Shown here piece by piece: positions 1-37,314 of a DNA stretch of 40,421 nucleotides. The notes under the pieces were generated by a model. The model saw only the letters and a list, made by a program, of their open reading frames with translations. It ran no database searches and was not told the DNA's origin. Source of the DNA: a virus; the IMG/VR virus record IMGVR_UViG_3300045125_000105, positions 1-40,421 of that record; one strand, written 5' to 3'. The translations under genes were made by a program, and so were the position numbers. Every line of letters begins with the position of its first letter. The stretch's first letter is position 1.

Positions 1-243
1 TCCAGCCCCGCCTGCTTGCCGCCCCTCCCCCTCTGTGGCCGGCCCGGCAGGGCCGGAACGGGCCGTGGCGTGCGGCGGCGGGAGCGGCGGGGGCGGAGCC
101 GGGGACGGCCGGGGCCGCCGGGGCGGGGGCGGGGGGAGGCGCAGGGGGAGGGCCGGGGCGGGCGGAGGGAGCAAGCTGCACCGGCGGGGCGAACTCCTCA
201 GCTTTCAGCCAGGCGGCCCCGCAGCAATTAGGCGCTTGTGCCA
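1..243. repeat. Left copy of direct terminal repeat
   Basis: This GC-rich segment matches 40161-40412 in the same orientation. Both copies begin tccagccccgcctg, share tgtggccggcccggcag, then a long G-rich stretch, and both end in gcgcttgtgcca. They differ by many one- or few-base indels and substitutions, mostly in G runs, which suggests read error on top of a true repeat. Such terminal redundancy is what a linear phage genome with short direct terminal repeats shows. An assembly overlap of a circular molecule would look similar. Confidence 0.8.
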
Positions 244-1520: not shown

Positions 1521-1761
1521 CTGTGCCGGAGGGCGGACGAGCACTGAACCCGAAAAGGTAGATTTCGCCGACGTCTCTATTGTGCGTCCTTGGCGTCATC
1601 CTCGGACTTTGCTTGGCTTGCTGTTCTGACGCGGTGTTGCCCTTGCCTCCCAAGCGAGGGCATAGCAAGGCAGCAAACCCGCTGCCGAAAACCAGAAAGC
1701 CACAAATGAACAGAGAACACGGACGCATGATTTAACCACGGAGTCTCCACGAACTACAGCT
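1521..1761. other. Gap with no supported gene
   Basis: About 240 bases separate two small plus-strand genes. No frame on either strand gives a convincing protein. The stretch gccacaaatgaacagagaac is purine-rich, but no consensus promoter was seen. Confidence 0.4.
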
Positions 1762-1950
1762 ATGCCATCGCCCTTCAAAGGGGCACTTGGATTGCAGCGA
1801 ATGGGAACGGAAACGCCTTTCCCGACGCGCACAGGTCGCCGCTTGCTGTATTGCTATAACCCCAAACAGGATCGGCACGCCTACCTTGACCTCGGCAGCG
1901 ACGTCATCTTGACCGACGACGAAGCCTTGAACGCCCTAGGCATCATCTAA
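1762..1950 (+). CDS. Small early protein
   Basis: This intact frame of 62 codons begins MPSPFKGALGLQ; an internal start, MGTETPFPTRTG at 1801, is equally possible. The C-terminal part, RRLLYCYNPKQDRHAYLDLG then DVILTDDEALNALGII, has the short beta/turn look of small conserved phage proteins of unknown function. It is followed 15 bases later by a strong hairpin terminator, so it closes the first plus-strand transcription unit. Confidence 0.6.
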   Translation: MPSPFKGALGLQRMGTETPFPTRTGRRLLYCYNPKQDRHAYLDLGSDVILTDDEALNALGII

Positions 1951-1964
1951 GCCTTCCTTCCATC

Positions 1965-1992
1965 GGGCCCCATTCGTTGGGGCCCTTTTTCT
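1965..1992 (+). terminator. Rho-independent terminator
   Basis: A perfect 7-base-pair stem, gggcccc/ggggccc, encloses the loop attcgtt and is followed directly by tttttctt. It lies 15 bases after the stop of the gene ending at 1950. Confidence 0.88.
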
Positions 1993-2105
1993 TGCTCTTG
2001 CTGGCCAGCAAGGGCCTTTGCCTTGGCCATTTGCTGGCATTTCTAGGCCTTTTCTAGCTTGGGCCCTAGGTAGGGCCTAGGCTTGCGCCCAATCGTGCCT
2101 TAAAA
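1993..2105. repeat. Cluster of palindromes and GGCC-containing repeats
   Basis: Positions 1997-2012 form a perfect 16-base palindrome (cttgctggccagcaag). The next 90 bases repeat the words aaggcc, ctaggcc and gggccctagg several times, including ggccctaggtagggcctagg near 2060-2080. No coding frame fits. This could be a replication or regulatory site, or simply a structured untranslated region. Confidence 0.55.
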
Positions 2106-2315
2106 CGCAAGCACATGCGTCCGGGCAATCGAACCGCAATCTCCGACCCGAAATTTTGGCCATCATTTCACCCAGGCCATTTTGCCCAATCCGATTTACT
2201 CCGAACGAGCCTTGCCCCGGCCATCCAAGGAATTTCCATAAGGCCAGCTTCTAGTCGAGCAGATCCTGCGCTTTCCATTTCACCGATTTTACCCCAAGTA
2301 ATGATTTTGCCCCTG
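2106..2315. other. Noncoding stretch, function not seen
   Basis: This is relatively AT-richer DNA with the words ggccat and ttttgccc each occurring twice. No convincing gene was found. It precedes the small plus-strand gene at 2316 and may hold its promoter, but no clear -35/-10 pair was recognised. Confidence 0.3.
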
Positions 2316-2604
2316 ATGACCTTCGACGAACAACTTTGCGTGCTCCCGCGTCGTGCTGGGGCTCTTCTAGGCCGAGGCCGCCCAGGCTCCTCAGCGTGTC
2401 CCGCCGCACCTACTGCAGTACTGGGAGCGGCAAGGCGGGGAGGCCGCCGCACGTGCTGATGCAGGAGGCGGACTTCTGGCCCGGCTGGCCAGCCCGCAGG
2501 AGATGGTTGACCAACTGACGTTACGCAAAACGCAGTTGACTCCTCGGCCCAGCCGGCGCAAGTTCTGCGTCAGACCTGAACTTCAGGGGGACGGGCCGGC
2601 CTAG
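2316..2604 (+). CDS. Small protein before the second terminator (frameshifted)
   Basis: This starts with MTFDEQL and, after an indel near 2360, reads EAAQAPQRVPPHLLQYWERQ, then SPQEMVDQLTLRKTQLTPRP, and stops at 2604. The C-terminal frame has coding character (G/C at third positions, an amphipathic Leu/Gln helix), and a hairpin terminator overlaps its end. About 95 residues, possibly helical. No family is recognised. Confidence 0.45.
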
Positions 2605-2636
2605 GGGGAACCAACCGAACCGGCCCGTTTCTGCTT
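2591..2636 (+). terminator. Rho-independent terminator
   Basis: The 9-base-pair perfect stem acgggccgg (2591-2599) pairs with ccggcccgt (2620-2628) and is followed by the T-rich tttctgcttct. It overlaps the stop of the plus-strand gene and separates it from the converging minus-strand tail-fibre unit. Confidence 0.8.
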
Positions 2637-2788
2637 CTAGCAGGCCCAGGCCCGGCGGGCTCCAAAAATTGCCGCTGAAGATGTTGTCCTGGCCCTTGAT
2701 GCCCTCCAGACCGGGCGCAGTAGCCTCTTCTTCCGCGCCGGCTGGGACTTCTTGATGGAGAGCTGGGGATCCCCGAACCGCACCAGCT
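2637..2788. other. Region between convergent units
   Basis: The minus strand can be read as a continuation of the gene to the right, for example KLVRFGDPQLSIKKSQPARK near 2745-2800. The end of that protein is uncertain because of likely indels. Nothing else is supported here. Confidence 0.3.
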
Positions 2789-3188
2789 TCACCTTGCTGC
2801 CCTTCTTGGCCAGCACGGCGCTCTTTCTTGGGGCTGCTCTGGGGTCTTCTTCGGCTTGTTGTAGCCGGTGAACTTCTCGCCGCGGTAGGTGATCATTGCT
2901 TGAAGATGCTGAAGATGGGCTTTCCAGCGGATAAAGGTCAGCTCAAAGTCGGCTGCGTTGCACAGCCAGCGGAAGGACTTGTACCAGGCCACCTTCAGCC
3001 GCAGCGCCGGCAGGAGATGCACGGCAAAGCCTTCCGGCGGGGGCGGGAGCCGGTAGCCCTGCACGCTGAGGCCTGGGCACCCCAGCGTGACCGTCCAGCC
3101 GTTCTCCTCGATGTTATGAGCGTTTGCGAAGGCCATTTGATTTCTTCTCCGTCCGGCGCCAGCAGCGGGCCACCTCGCGCCAGTCCAT
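2789..3188 (-). CDS. Hypothetical protein downstream of the fibre genes
   Basis: A start at 3188 gives MDWREVARCWRRTEKK. After an indel the sense continues as ENGWTVTLGCPGLSVQGYRL, then GFAVHLLPALRLKVAWYKSF, WLCNAADFELTFIRWKAHLQ and YRGEKFTGYNKPKK. It is Trp- and Arg-rich, about 130 residues, and may extend to about 2650. No catalytic motif is evident. It is the last gene of the left minus-strand tail-fibre unit, so a role linked to host interaction or lysis is possible but unproven. Confidence 0.5.
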
Positions 3189-3297
3189 TGAGATCGAGTG
3201 CCGTGACGCTCCGGGATCCAGACCGCAGGATCACCCCTGACCGGGAGGTCGTGGGTCGAGGGCAGGCGGAAGTCGGCATCCACCCAGGTCGTCACGT
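3185..3297 (-). CDS. Very small linking ORF
   Basis: A GTG start at 3297 overlaps the stop of the fibre-assembly-like gene (gtgacgacc) and gives TTWVDADFRLPSTHDLPVRG, followed after a probable indel by SVTALDLNGLARG. It is about 37 residues if real. The N-terminal coding character is good; the function is unknown. It may instead be the N-terminus of the next gene. Confidence 0.3.
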
Positions 3298-3695
3298 CAG
3301 GTACGGGCCGGGCGCGAGGATCACCGCCGGGTCCAGGCCGAGCTGCTGGCACATCGCGATGACGGTCGGGTTGCGTGTCCCAAAACCACGCGAAGTTGTC
3401 CCAGAGGTAAGCCTGATCGGCGGGCAGGCCGTCGGTCAGCGCGATGAGGTCGTTGAGCTTTCCGGCGGCGAGCACGCGGAAGACGATGGTGTCCTTGCTC
3501 ACTCGGTAGGGCGCAGGAGGCGGCAGCGGCTTGACGCACCCAGCCGCAGTTCTCCCAGACTGGAGCCTGCTGCTGGCCGGATCGTAGGATCGGCGGCACC
3601 GTCTCCACCCATCCCTTGCGCTCAAGGTTGGAGATGGTGTCCGCGTCGGTCTCGGAGCGGAAGGCCTGACAGTCGAGGGTGAGGTAGGTGGGCAT
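3292..3695 (-). CDS. Tail-fibre assembly-like protein
   Basis: The start MPTYLTLDCQAFRSETDADT overlaps the end of the lectin gene (its stop is 3698-3700). The reading continues as ISNLERKGWVETVPP and VWENCGWV. After a frameshift near 3530 it reads VKPLPPPAPYRVSKDTIVFR, KLNDLIALTDGLPADQAYLW and FAWFWDT, then TVIAMCQQLGLDPAVILAPG and a stop at 3292. The plan is a short N-terminal domain, a proline linker, and a C-terminal helical domain like 'I..L...gkL..v..l...a....w....f....p....l...lgL'. It is typical of small proteins encoded just after phage tail fibres, which act as fibre chaperones or accessory proteins. About 132 residues. Confidence 0.6.
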
Positions 3696-34456: not shown

Positions 34457-36988
34457 TTAATAGCTCCACGTTCTGTTGTCTGCGGACTCAACGGTCTGCG
34501 GGTCCATAAACTCGCAGTTGGCGACCAGCAGATACCGCAGGCAATCGACGGGATCCTTGGTTGCCTCTTCCTTGCCGCCCTTGGCTGTGTACTCACTCAT
34601 TGAGTAGATCAGGTTCTGACAGCGGTCCGCGATGTAGAGCTTGGGCCCGTTCATCGCGGTGATGGGCTTGGACTCGTCGTAGGAGAGCAGCCCGTTGATC
34701 AACTGCAGGCCGTTCTCGATCTCCACGCCGGGGCGGGGATGAACGTCATTCCCACATCGTCCAGCTCGGAGATGATGGTGGTGGCCCCTTCCGCCGACTG
34801 CCTTTCCGCTGCACCGAGGCGCGGGTCAATGAGCCTTTCCTGAATCGCTTCACCGTCCTCACATTGCTGGATAAGCTCGACGTAGTCACGGATGCCGCGC
34901 TTGGAGCCCTTCTGGGCCGGCCCGGGCTTGCCTTCGGGGCCGGAGCCGGGGAGGGCCCAGTCGTCGTAGTCGGGCCACTCGCGGTAGACCCACCAGGTGC
35001 CGGCGGCGTCGATGGCGACCCAGAGCATAAACCAGTTCTTCGATCCAGCAGGGTCCAGAGCCATATACCGAGTGACCGGATAGCTTGGGTCACGGACGAA
35101 AGGTAGTGTTTCATAGGGGATGACATTGACCTCCTTGTTGAACCCGGGGAACACGGACGTGATGGACTTGGTGGGAATGCCGTAGGCGCGGGCCAGCACC
35201 TCATCGCGGGGACGGCCCAACAGCTTCTTGGTGAAGTCGGACGTATCGAGGAACGCATTGTCCTCGGTCCAGAAGTAGTAGATGACCGTGTTGGGCCGGG
35301 AGACTGGACTCCTGGATGATGGGCAGCTCCTTGCCGACCAGTGGGGCGAACCTTTTCTTGATCGTGCGCGTCTTGCCCAGGATGTCCTGCACCAGCGGCG
35401 TCCACCCGGTGAGGGTGGTGAAGGTCAGGACAATGCGACCGTGATAGTCGGTCGTCCGGTACTGGAGCGTCTCCCACATCTTCTGCGGGCACTCCTCGTC
35501 GCACCAGATCAGGTGGGCCTTGTAGCCCTCGGCCACCTGGGCGTCGTTGGCGTAAGCCCGGTAATTACTGAACTTGATGGAGCCGCCGCGAGTGGCGCCG
35601 GCCAGCGGGGGCAGAATGCAGATGTTGTCGGTGAACCCGTTCTTCTGGCTGTACTGGACGGAGTGGTTGAGGCCCTTCTTGGTCGGCAGCCGGCGGATGC
35701 CGACGGGCAGGGCATCGTAGATCATCCGCTGCTGGTCCTCAATGGAGCGATCCTCGTTGACGTGGTAGGTGCGAACCTCAGCAGAGGGTATGGTGCCAGC
35801 GGCCCAAACGCACAACCGGCTGGCAAAAATCGACTTGGATGAATTATGGTGAATCACGCCCGCTACCTCATAGTTGCCATAGGCGGGAACAGTCATATCC
35901 CACTTGACAGCGGTTCCCGCCAAGCGCATATGGGTGACGTATGCCAAAGTATGACAAAATTGACTATCCCGTAGAGGAAATCCGTCGGTGGATTGCCGAA
36001 GGGCAGACGCAACAACAGATCGCCGAGACATTACGGCAAAGTTTGGATCATCGGATAACACCCAAGCTGATTTACAAGGTCTGTAAAAAGCACGGGATAA
36101 AATGCCAGCGCACCGGACCACGAGCAGGCGAAGGCCATCCCGAATGGAAAGGTGGCCGTATTGTGGATCGATGCGGGTACGTTTTCCTTTTCCGACCAGA
36201 ACATCCCGAATGCGTGCGAGTAAACGAGATGCGCCGCCTAAAGGCGAACGGCGGTTACTATCGGAAGGAGAAATATATCCAGGAGCATCGCCTTGTGATG
36301 GAGGAGCATCTTGGACGCTACCTGCAGCCGCACGAGGTGGTGCATCACCTAAACGGACAACGCTCGGATAATCGGCTGTCCAACCTTGTCCTGTTTCAAT
36401 CCAACGCTGAACATTTGGAGGTAGATCTGGCAGGGCGCTGTCCCAAATGGTCCGAGGATGGAAAATGGCGTCTCCAGGTTTCAAGGTTGAAACGGACCGC
36501 CAAAGCCCGGATGCGGACAGCACGCGATGCTCAAGAGAGGCTACAAATCGTTGACCAGTTGAAAGCCTCACTTCCACCATCATACCGCGATCTTTTTGGA
36601 AAGGCTGTTGAGCCTTTGCTATGACACGCTTGGTGCCGTCCCACGCATAGACGTGGTGATCGCCTCGGATGCTGTCGATCCTGCGCTCTATCTGAAGCAC
36701 GGGATCGTACACCATCGTATCCCCACGCAAACAGCGATTTCCGCCCAGGATGACGTGATTCTGGTACTTGCCCCAGTTGGCCATCACCTCCTGCCACATC
36801 GGCAGCACCCAGCCGGCACCTACGGGGTTGTCGAGGGCCTGTTTGTTGCGTTCCTCACGGAAGGCAAGATATTCGCCCAGCTTGTCCTGCGGCCAGGCCA
36901 GCAGTTCCTCCCGCTCGGGGATGGGCACCCACGGGATGCCAAAGCTGGGCTGGAAATCGTCCGAAAAGTAGACGTCACCGAGTGGCAT
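34457..36988 (-). CDS. terL: Terminase large subunit (intein-containing precursor)
   Basis: The start MPLGDVYFSDDFQPSFG at 36988 overlaps the upstream stop. The N-extein (1-85) ends VILGGNR. An intein occupies residues 86-382. The C-extein resumes SSKSIFASRLCVWAAGT, so the restored P-loop is GGNR-SSKS, with Ser where most Walker A motifs have Gly. Walker B is HLIWCDEE; the motif III region is LTFTTLTGW. A frameshift near 35308 leads to NTVIYYFWTEDNAFLDTSDF and LGRPRDEVLARAYGIPTKSI. The nuclease domain starts YMALDPAGSKNWFMLWVAID. A second indel near 34735 leads to EIENGLQLINGLLSYDESKP and the final KDPVDCLRYLLV. The spliced protein is about 545 residues, normal for TerL. It cuts concatemers and pumps DNA through the portal. 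The first 560 codons, including the intein, are frame-intact. Confidence 0.85.
35882..35921. repeat. Inverted repeat between intein block F and the endonuclease start
   Basis: ggcgggaac (35882-35890) and gttcccgcc (35913-35921) form a perfect 9-base inverted repeat with a 22-base spacer that contains ttgaca. It lies just upstream of the endonuclease start while encoding intein codons (GTA and VPA) on the minus strand. It could form a hairpin in either transcript or be a binding site. Confidence 0.6.
35904..35932 (+). promoter_or_regulatory. Candidate promoter for the antisense endonuclease
   Basis: A perfect -35 hexamer ttgaca (35904-35909) is followed after 17 bases by catatg (35927-35932), a weak -10. 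Transcription would start about 35939, at or next to the ATG at 35941, giving a nearly leaderless message. The sequence also encodes intein block F on the other strand, so the match may be chance. Confidence 0.3.
35941..36624 (+). CDS. HNH homing endonuclease, antisense within the TerL intein
   Basis: An intact 227-codon gene on the strand opposite the intein. The N-terminal part (about 10-50), VEEIRRWIAEGQTQQQIAET and KLIYKVCKKHGIKC, is a helix-turn-helix for DNA recognition. Next comes GHPEWKGGRIVDRCGYVFLF, then the catalytic HNH_3-type core: EHRLVMEEHLGRYLQPHEVV (115-134), HHLNG (135-139), DNRLSNLVLFQSNAEH (143-158). His135/His136, Asn138, Asn144 and His158 form the beta-beta-alpha metal site. 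The C-terminal helices are basic. The gene covers intein residues 37-265. Its catalytic region lies over the intein linker, and its C-terminal ~53 codons overlap the intein block B half. It probably nicks or cuts intein-less terL to drive homing. Start chosen at MPKYDKIDYP, 41 bases inside the end of the block F coding region. Confidence 0.85.
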   Translation: MPKYDKIDYPVEEIRRWIAEGQTQQQIAETLRQSLDHRITPKLIYKVCKKHGIKCQRTGPRAGEGHPEWKGGRIVDRCGYVFLFRPEHPECVRVNEMRRLKANGGYYRKEKYIQEHRLVMEEHLGRYLQPHEVVHHLNGQRSDNRLSNLVLFQSNAEHLEVDLAGRCPKWSEDGKWRLQVSRLKRTAKARMRTARDAQERLQIVDQLKASLPPSYRDLFGKAVEPLL

Positions 36989-37236
36989 TGCGGCGGGAGG
37001 GCTCTTTGGTGAACGAGGCGCGGGCGTGGCGCAGGGATTCCCACGGAATCAGGGCCTGACCGTCGATGTTAAGGCCGGCGGGCTCCGGCAATGACGGCCA
37101 AACGGGCATACTCACGGGAGCCGGGGATGTCCGGCTCGACGATCCACTCGTCAACGTAGCGTTTTCTGAGCATTGCCATCTGGTAGGCCCGTCCGGTGGG
37201 CATAAAAGGCAAAAGCTGCGCGGCAAAATACGTCAT
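36975..37236 (-). CDS. Small protein directly upstream of TerL
   Basis: This starts MTYFAAQLLPFMPTGRAYQM, AMLRKRYVDEWIVEPDIPGS, REYARLAVIAGA. After one indel near 37080 it reads GLNIDGQALIPWESLRHARA and SFTKEPSRRNATR, ending at a stop that overlaps the TerL start by 14 bases. About 87 residues, helical. The position before TerL makes it a candidate small terminase subunit or packaging accessory, but it is short and no DNA-binding motif is clear; the gene at 39.0-39.9 kb is another candidate. Confidence 0.5.
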
Positions 37237-37314
37237 AAGATGGGCTAATATCGCTAATTTCAGTACACTTGGCCCTTTCCGCACTGTTTTTGAGCGCCCA
37301 CCGTGCCGTCCCGA
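37237..37314. promoter_or_regulatory. Divergent promoter region
   Basis: The late operon (leftward) and the glycosyltransferase unit (rightward) start on either side of this 78-base AT-richer gap. On the plus strand taatat at 37246-37251 is a fair -10 without a good -35. Promoters for both directions are expected from the gene arrangement. Confidence 0.35.

Follow-up and report, generated by a model that had tools for sequence, protein, structure and literature searches.

Background

Inteins in the terminase large subunit (TerL) of mycobacteriophages are among the bifunctional (maxi-)inteins, which carry a LAGLIDADG or HNH domain in frame (PMC5050341). Here we report on IMG/VR virus record IMGVR_UViG_3300045125_000105 (positions 1 to 40,421; this whole stretch of 40,421 nucleotides is referred to as the window), in which the terL gene contains an intein and a separate gene on the opposite strand of that intein encodes a putative homing endonuclease with a helix-turn-helix (HTH) and an HNH part. 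As in the bifunctional inteins (PMC5050341), the Hint domain is located in the ATPase part of the terminase, the endonuclease lies inside the intein, and the distribution is sporadic with precise sites; unlike in these, the window endonuclease is encoded by its own gene on the opposite strand, whose antisense translation forms the intein linker.

Two other types of insert are, together with their differences, the closest published relatives that we found. In the ShiLan domain, or Pacc40 insertion, an out-of-frame HNH gene is hidden in an insertion in a phage methylase (PMC11855218). There, as in the window, the HNH gene overlaps an insert that is kept open in the frame of the host gene (PMC11855218), and ShiLan-type methylase records match the window HNH protein; however, the ShiLan HNH gene is on the same strand in another frame and no splicing domain is detectable, whereas the window HNH gene is antisense and inside a genuine intein. 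The second is I-DsqI of Didymium squamulosum, the product of an antisense homing endonuclease gene (HEG) in a nuclear rDNA group I intron with antisense expression in vivo (PMC9548176). Its gene shares with the window HEG the position on the strand opposite to the host gene, but the system is eukaryotic, is spliced at the RNA level, has a His-Cys box nuclease and involves no double coding with a protein. The initial annotation of the window knew of no described intein with an antisense endonuclease, and our search of the open-licence literature likewise yielded no report of an intein with an antisense HEG within it, while other papers could contain one.

Dassa et al. 2009 reportedly described fractured genes whose halves bear split inteins and are separated by a free-standing endonuclease. 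They are similar in that the endonuclease is a separate gene tied to the intein, and one of our loci (L153, see below) has such a layout; unlike them, the window and nearly all its relatives have one continuous intein, with the coding sequences overlapped and not separated.

The window intein and its antisense HNH gene

The initial annotation had placed an intein in the P-loop of TerL and an intact 227-codon HNH gene on the opposite strand over intein residues 37-265; the coordinates of the intein are exact, and the HNH open reading frame (ORF) is intact and spans these residues (Table 1). Also as proposed, the HNH gene spans neither block A nor blocks F/G; block B is opposite the part that encodes the HNH C-terminal tail, and the HNH motif is opposite the linker. 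The terL frame gave a weak Pfam match to Intein_splicing (E 1.7e-4, under the curated cut-off), and the claim that the intein has no in-frame endonuclease holds: Pfam and PHROG searches detected no endonuclease domain in the window terL frame, and the linker is predicted to be disordered. The antisense ORF matched HNH_3 in Pfam (E 9e-10) and several HNH endonucleases in PHROG (best E 2e-22).

Table 1. Coordinates of the window features and of the corresponding genes in cultured phages (pLDDT, predicted local distance difference test)
Feature	Position	Strand	Remarks
terL ORF in the window	35201-36988	minus	intein Cys86 to Asn382 between GGNR and SSKS
terL N-extein, GGNR at its end being the first half of the Walker A P-loop	36734..36988	minus	
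Intein, 297 amino acids, Cys1 ... His296-Asn297, +1 Ser	35843..36733	minus	Hint fold by AlphaFold and Foldseek
N-terminal Hint half, intein residues 1-94, blocks A and B	36452..36733	minus	pLDDT mostly >90
Linker between the Hint halves, residues 95-260, predicted disordered, encoded opposite to the HNH gene	35954..36451	minus	pLDDT ~30
C-terminal Hint half, residues 261-297, blocks F and G	35843..35953	minus	
HTH-HNH endonuclease gene nested antisense, 227 amino acids and stop	35941..36624	plus	HNH_3, PHROG, pLDDT 90.6
Sigma70-like promoter candidate of the HNH gene, TTGACA-17-CATATG	35904..35932	plus	9/12 matches
terL C-extein, begins with SSKS, the second half of the P-loop	34460..35842	minus	two frameshifts as assembled
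Ymer HNH gene	L082 3414-4112		
PHS3 HNH gene	L083 (KX912252.1) 2809-3519		
PHS3 terL	L083 (KX912252.1) 1541-3667		record annotates 1541-2716 only

We consider it probable, at roughly 0.87, that this is a mobile intein and that its homing endonuclease is encoded by a gene of its own in antisense orientation; the splicing, the cleavage, the antisense expression and its timing are what we infer. Specifically, the terL strand would be read as a Hint splicing domain that a long, disordered linker divides in two, and excision of the intein after translation would rebuild the Walker A loop GGNR-SSKS. On the strand opposite to the linker there would be an autonomous gene for an HTH-HNH homing endonuclease. 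This gene is probably transcribed from a promoter of its own within the intein, and its product would cut intein-less terL at the P-loop such that repair copies the entire element in. From the sequence comparisons below we take as established the arrangement, its conservation, the constraint on the opposite strand, the precise empty sites and the horizontal movement.

The window element does not qualify as a bifunctional intein, in which the endonuclease is in frame, since here the endonuclease is absent from the terL frame, the linker is disordered, and HNH is always antisense where present. It is also not a split intein, because there is one continuous ORF in the window and in nearly all relatives, only L153 being split.

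Occurrence and consistency of antisense-HNH inteins

The window HNH protein matched at least 80 loci in viral contigs (47-78% identity). In all 80 loci of this first search the HNH gene is nested antisense inside a long ORF, i.e. a terminase with an intein at its P-loop, and the relative phase of the two frames is identical in 81 of 81 sequences (the 80 loci and the window). Searches with the HNH genes of the cultured phages PHS3 and Ymer gave 22 further loci, where all 22 IMG/VR loci showed the nested antisense arrangement in the same phase, and an HNH-profile search (best 80 of 506 HNH-positive stretches) added another 57, of which 56 were nested antisense in the same phase and L153 was the exception. 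The HNH-based searches comprise at least about 160 viral loci in total. Since the set was collected with HNH and intein queries of the antisense-HNH family, taking the best 80 matches of each, these numbers measure the consistency within the family and not its share among all inteins.

A six-frame profile search returned 231 intein matches with an antisense HNH and one without, a count in which a contig retrieved by several searches appears repeatedly. Among the 123 distinct complete inteins beginning with Cys1, 122 have an antisense HNH (117 detected by motif, the rest by profile) and the only one lacking it is a mini-intein. Close-relative searches of bacterial and archaeal genome contigs gave no relatives of the window or PHS3 HNH proteins. 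A tblastn search of cultured phages with the window intein protein gave no match, whereas the window HNH protein did match there.

Empty sites, mobility and unusual relatives

Among 80 close relatives listed for a related terL C-extein, 68 are intein-less, 11 have an intein and one is cut off; in the 68 empty alleles GGNR is joined straight to S[STA]KS. When the window flanks were joined and compared with the intein-less terL of L196 the identity was 86.6% over 791 nucleotides with no gap at the junction, and the Ymer extein aligned gapless across the insertion site with that of the intein-less Klebsiella phage KLB22. Moreover, the HNH proteins of L021 and L072 are 70% alike and their exteins 24%, while L096 shows exteins 99% and 92% alike and HNH proteins 58% and 40% alike in comparison with L310 and L137, respectively. 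In these comparisons the intein and host phylogenies clash as expected of homing, and the sequences show horizontal movement. The host genes include those of the Terminase_3 and Terminase_6 types, a single helicase-like gene in L151 and a single AAA ATPase gene in L153. The antisense-HNH intein of L151 (2778-4754) is in a gene matching PHROG DNA helicase (E 7e-14), hence the element is not confined to terminases.

Two loci look like later stages of a homing cycle. In L090 the HNH gene has a nonsense codon and the intein frame is open, and L166 (1113-1508) has a 132-amino-acid mini-intein without HNH at the same GGNR|S site in a terL very near that of L004. A closed antisense frame among relatives, named by the initial annotation as evidence that would speak against its proposal, was seen in L090 only.

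The HNH protein might instead be a DNA-packaging factor that is merely housed in the intein. HNH proteins often adjoin the terminase and assist packaging, those aiding terminases are cited in PMC11855218, and the element is nearly always in terL. We regard this as improbable given that most close terL relatives are without the element, that it is also present in the helicase-like and AAA ATPase genes, and that the HNH gene of L090 is broken while its intein is intact.

In L153 (2796-4805) an AAA ATPase gene is fractured such that each intein half has an ORF of its own and the antisense HNH gene separates the two; the N-half ORF has its own stop, and the C-half has its own ATG with AGAGG upstream. 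This arrangement suggests that an antisense-HNH intein can turn into a split intein, and makes L153 a candidate natural split intein.

Constraint on both strands

In the stretch overlapped by the HNH gene, stops are absent from the terL frame of all 104 loci, and each locus contains stops in each of the other four non-HNH frames. Synonymous-codon shuffles of representative HNH genes, which preserve the HNH protein and its codon usage, predict 3-9 terL-frame stops (5.2 for the window), and at most 1.3% of the shuffles, usually 0 of 1000, left the terL frame open; the overlap is therefore far from what chance would give.

Across 106 pairs, themselves 62-95% identical in nucleotides, the amino acid identity was 71% in the HNH frame versus 43% in the antisense linker, with differences at HNH codon positions 1, 2 and 3 of 0.24, 0.19 and 0.47. 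Within the window clade, the terL codon positions 1/2/3 vary 0.20/0.14/0.60 in intein residues 1-36, where position 3 is highest, and 0.24/0.52/0.14 in linker residues 95-258, where position 2 corresponds to the HNH wobble position; in residues 266-297 position 3 is again highest (0.17/0.15/0.39). An intermediate pattern with both frames constrained is seen in residues 37-94, the section in which block B and the HNH tail overlap. Because the variable codon position switches along the intein in this manner, the HNH gene appears to be under selection as a protein, and selection on the linker appears to maintain no more than an open frame.

These data also bear on whether the intein is functional and the antisense HNH gene a relic of a past insertion that drifts in the linker. 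Inteins with dead endonucleases are known, and HNH is broken in L090 and lost in L166. Retention of HNH in 122 of the 123 complete inteins, however, argues against a relic, as does the substitution pattern, in which HNH is the better conserved frame with its variation at wobble positions; we give this explanation little credence.

Features of the intein and the HNH protein

In an alignment of 23 sequences Cys1, block B His69, Trp278-Asp279 and His296-Asn297 (window numbering for His69) are invariant, and the +1 residue in the unique inteins is Ser, Thr or Cys; the window block B reads SLEH and not TxxH. The AlphaFold model of the intein is of high confidence for the two Hint halves and of low pLDDT for the linker between them (Table 1), and Foldseek matched it to RecA and DnaB mini-inteins (E about 3e-7). 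Judged by these residues and the predicted fold, the element has the features of a class 1 intein that can be tested in this way, i.e. the splice residues, the Hint fold and a precise insertion removable in frame.

Across 34 HNH proteins His136, Asn148 and His158 are among the invariant residues, so the loss of HNH residues in relatives that the initial annotation had considered was not seen for the catalytic-type positions. The window HNH protein is modelled by AlphaFold with high mean confidence (Table 1), and its N-terminus is predicted to be helical and winged-HTH-like (HTH_33 at E 0.017, under its cut-off). The only profile match, to 8vd6 'CAP REPEAT', covers 36 N-terminal residues and is uninformative.

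Removal of the insert as RNA, by a self-splicing intron with an antisense HEG and with the continuity of the terL frame being incidental, would have a parallel in the antisense HEGs established in nuclear group I introns (PMC9548176). It is nevertheless very unlikely, as an Rfam scan of 35300-37300 up to E 1 matched no intron families, Cys1, His-Asn and the +1 Ser/Thr/Cys are conserved, a Hint fold is predicted, and there are no stops in 104 of 104 loci.

Expression signals of the HNH gene

In 13 of 50 distinct loci, the HNH strand has, at most 75 nucleotides upstream of the HNH start, a pair that resembles TTGACA/TATAAT in 10 or more of 12 positions; these loci are related and not independent and represent few lineages. 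None of the 50 had such a pair in any of the three controls (opposite strand, farther upstream, inside the gene), and 0.5 would be expected from dinucleotide shuffles. For seven of the 13 loci the -10 element ends 6-9 nucleotides before the ATG without a Shine-Dalgarno core, a spacing as for a leaderless transcript; in the other six it ends 26-31 nucleotides before the ATG, five of them having a Shine-Dalgarno core. The PHS3 group has a largely conserved TTGACA-17-GATAAT, whose GATAAT is at L083 2772-2777 in PHS3, and an AGGAGG-type site in most members; L090 shows erosion of the HNH gene, of the promoter and of the Shine-Dalgarno site alike. We count the Shine-Dalgarno enrichment as support only, because a second enriched window 35-58 nucleotides upstream, probably due to conserved intein codons, confounds the test. 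Together, the promoter-like and Shine-Dalgarno sequences on the HNH strand make it more likely that the HNH gene is expressed separately from terL.

The -10 element of the window candidate ends 8 nucleotides before the ATG, i.e. with leaderless-type spacing.

Evaluation and wider meaning

Three observations weigh against a mobile intein with an antisense homing endonuclease in the window. The promoter candidate is weak (9/12) and its TTGACA overlaps conserved intein-motif codons; the HNH model gave no significant match to folds in the PDB, the homing endonuclease I-HmuI being second-ranked and the best relevant one at E 1.3; and terL as assembled is frameshifted twice downstream of the intein, near 35306-35334 and 34726-34756. 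The C-extein was accordingly recovered by tblastn in pieces (35842-35306, 35334-34726 and 34756-34460) with 84-92% identity to L196. The frameshifts are probably sequencing indels, since terL of the relatives is intact, and both leave the intein and the HNH gene untouched. Numerous short fragmented ORFs are present elsewhere in the window; these and the two frameshifts relative to a 92%-identical homologue suggest a contig with indel errors. An assembly or annotation artefact, or a chance antisense ORF, is refuted by the relatives in spite of the frameshifts in the contig, as there are more than 100 distinct loci from many independent contigs, nine cultured phages with complete genomes, a conserved phase and the shuffling tests, which excludes the assembly error that the initial annotation had considered.

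Beyond the window, we favour with some reserve the view that antisense-HNH inteins form a widespread and undescribed class of phage mobile elements that would have a single origin, given one codon phase everywhere, and would have been carried by homing from one terminase to another, unrelated one and into other P-loop ATPases. The endonuclease would have its own intein-internal promoter, with a leaderless transcript or a Shine-Dalgarno leader, which would uncouple cutting from late terminase synthesis, and separation of the two genes, as in L153, would yield natural split inteins. A mobile intein would then not need to hold the endonuclease in its own polypeptide, as the nuclease gene can lie antisense within the element; production of the nuclease would be decoupled from that of the host protein, and L153 indicates a possible route to split inteins. 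The loci also provide more than 100 examples of a long antisense gene overlap with comparative evidence for the upkeep of both frames.

Antisense-HNH inteins in cultured phages

Nine cultured phages have an antisense-HNH intein, eight of the Pectobacterium/Dickeya Ymer group and Pseudoalteromonas phage PHS3, and they allow direct tests of splicing, cleavage, antisense transcription and homing. None of the nine records annotates an intein, in line with annotation pipelines overlooking the element. In the eight Ymer-group phages the terL intein site is AGFG|CVHPH...HIHHN|TGKS; terL is labelled 'hypothetical protein' in seven of seven annotated records, and in the paper on these phages, where the terminase was annotated manually, a full-text search gave 0 mentions of 'intein'. 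In the PHS3 record the annotated terL is truncated and lacks both N-extein and intein, because the antisense HNH gene was called on the opposite strand instead.

Streptomyces phages BRock and GiJojo, with a helicase/primase overlapping an HNH match, were rejected as candidates, the HNH genes being ordinary same-strand neighbours. Finally, two loci deviate in detail. In L058 (1375-2241) the HNH gene and the C-terminal Hint half are present and the N-terminal Hint half is not detectable, such that this intein-like locus may be degenerate or misassembled, and in L080 (4001-4900) the HNH ORF extends beyond the intein start into the N-extein coding region on the opposite strand.
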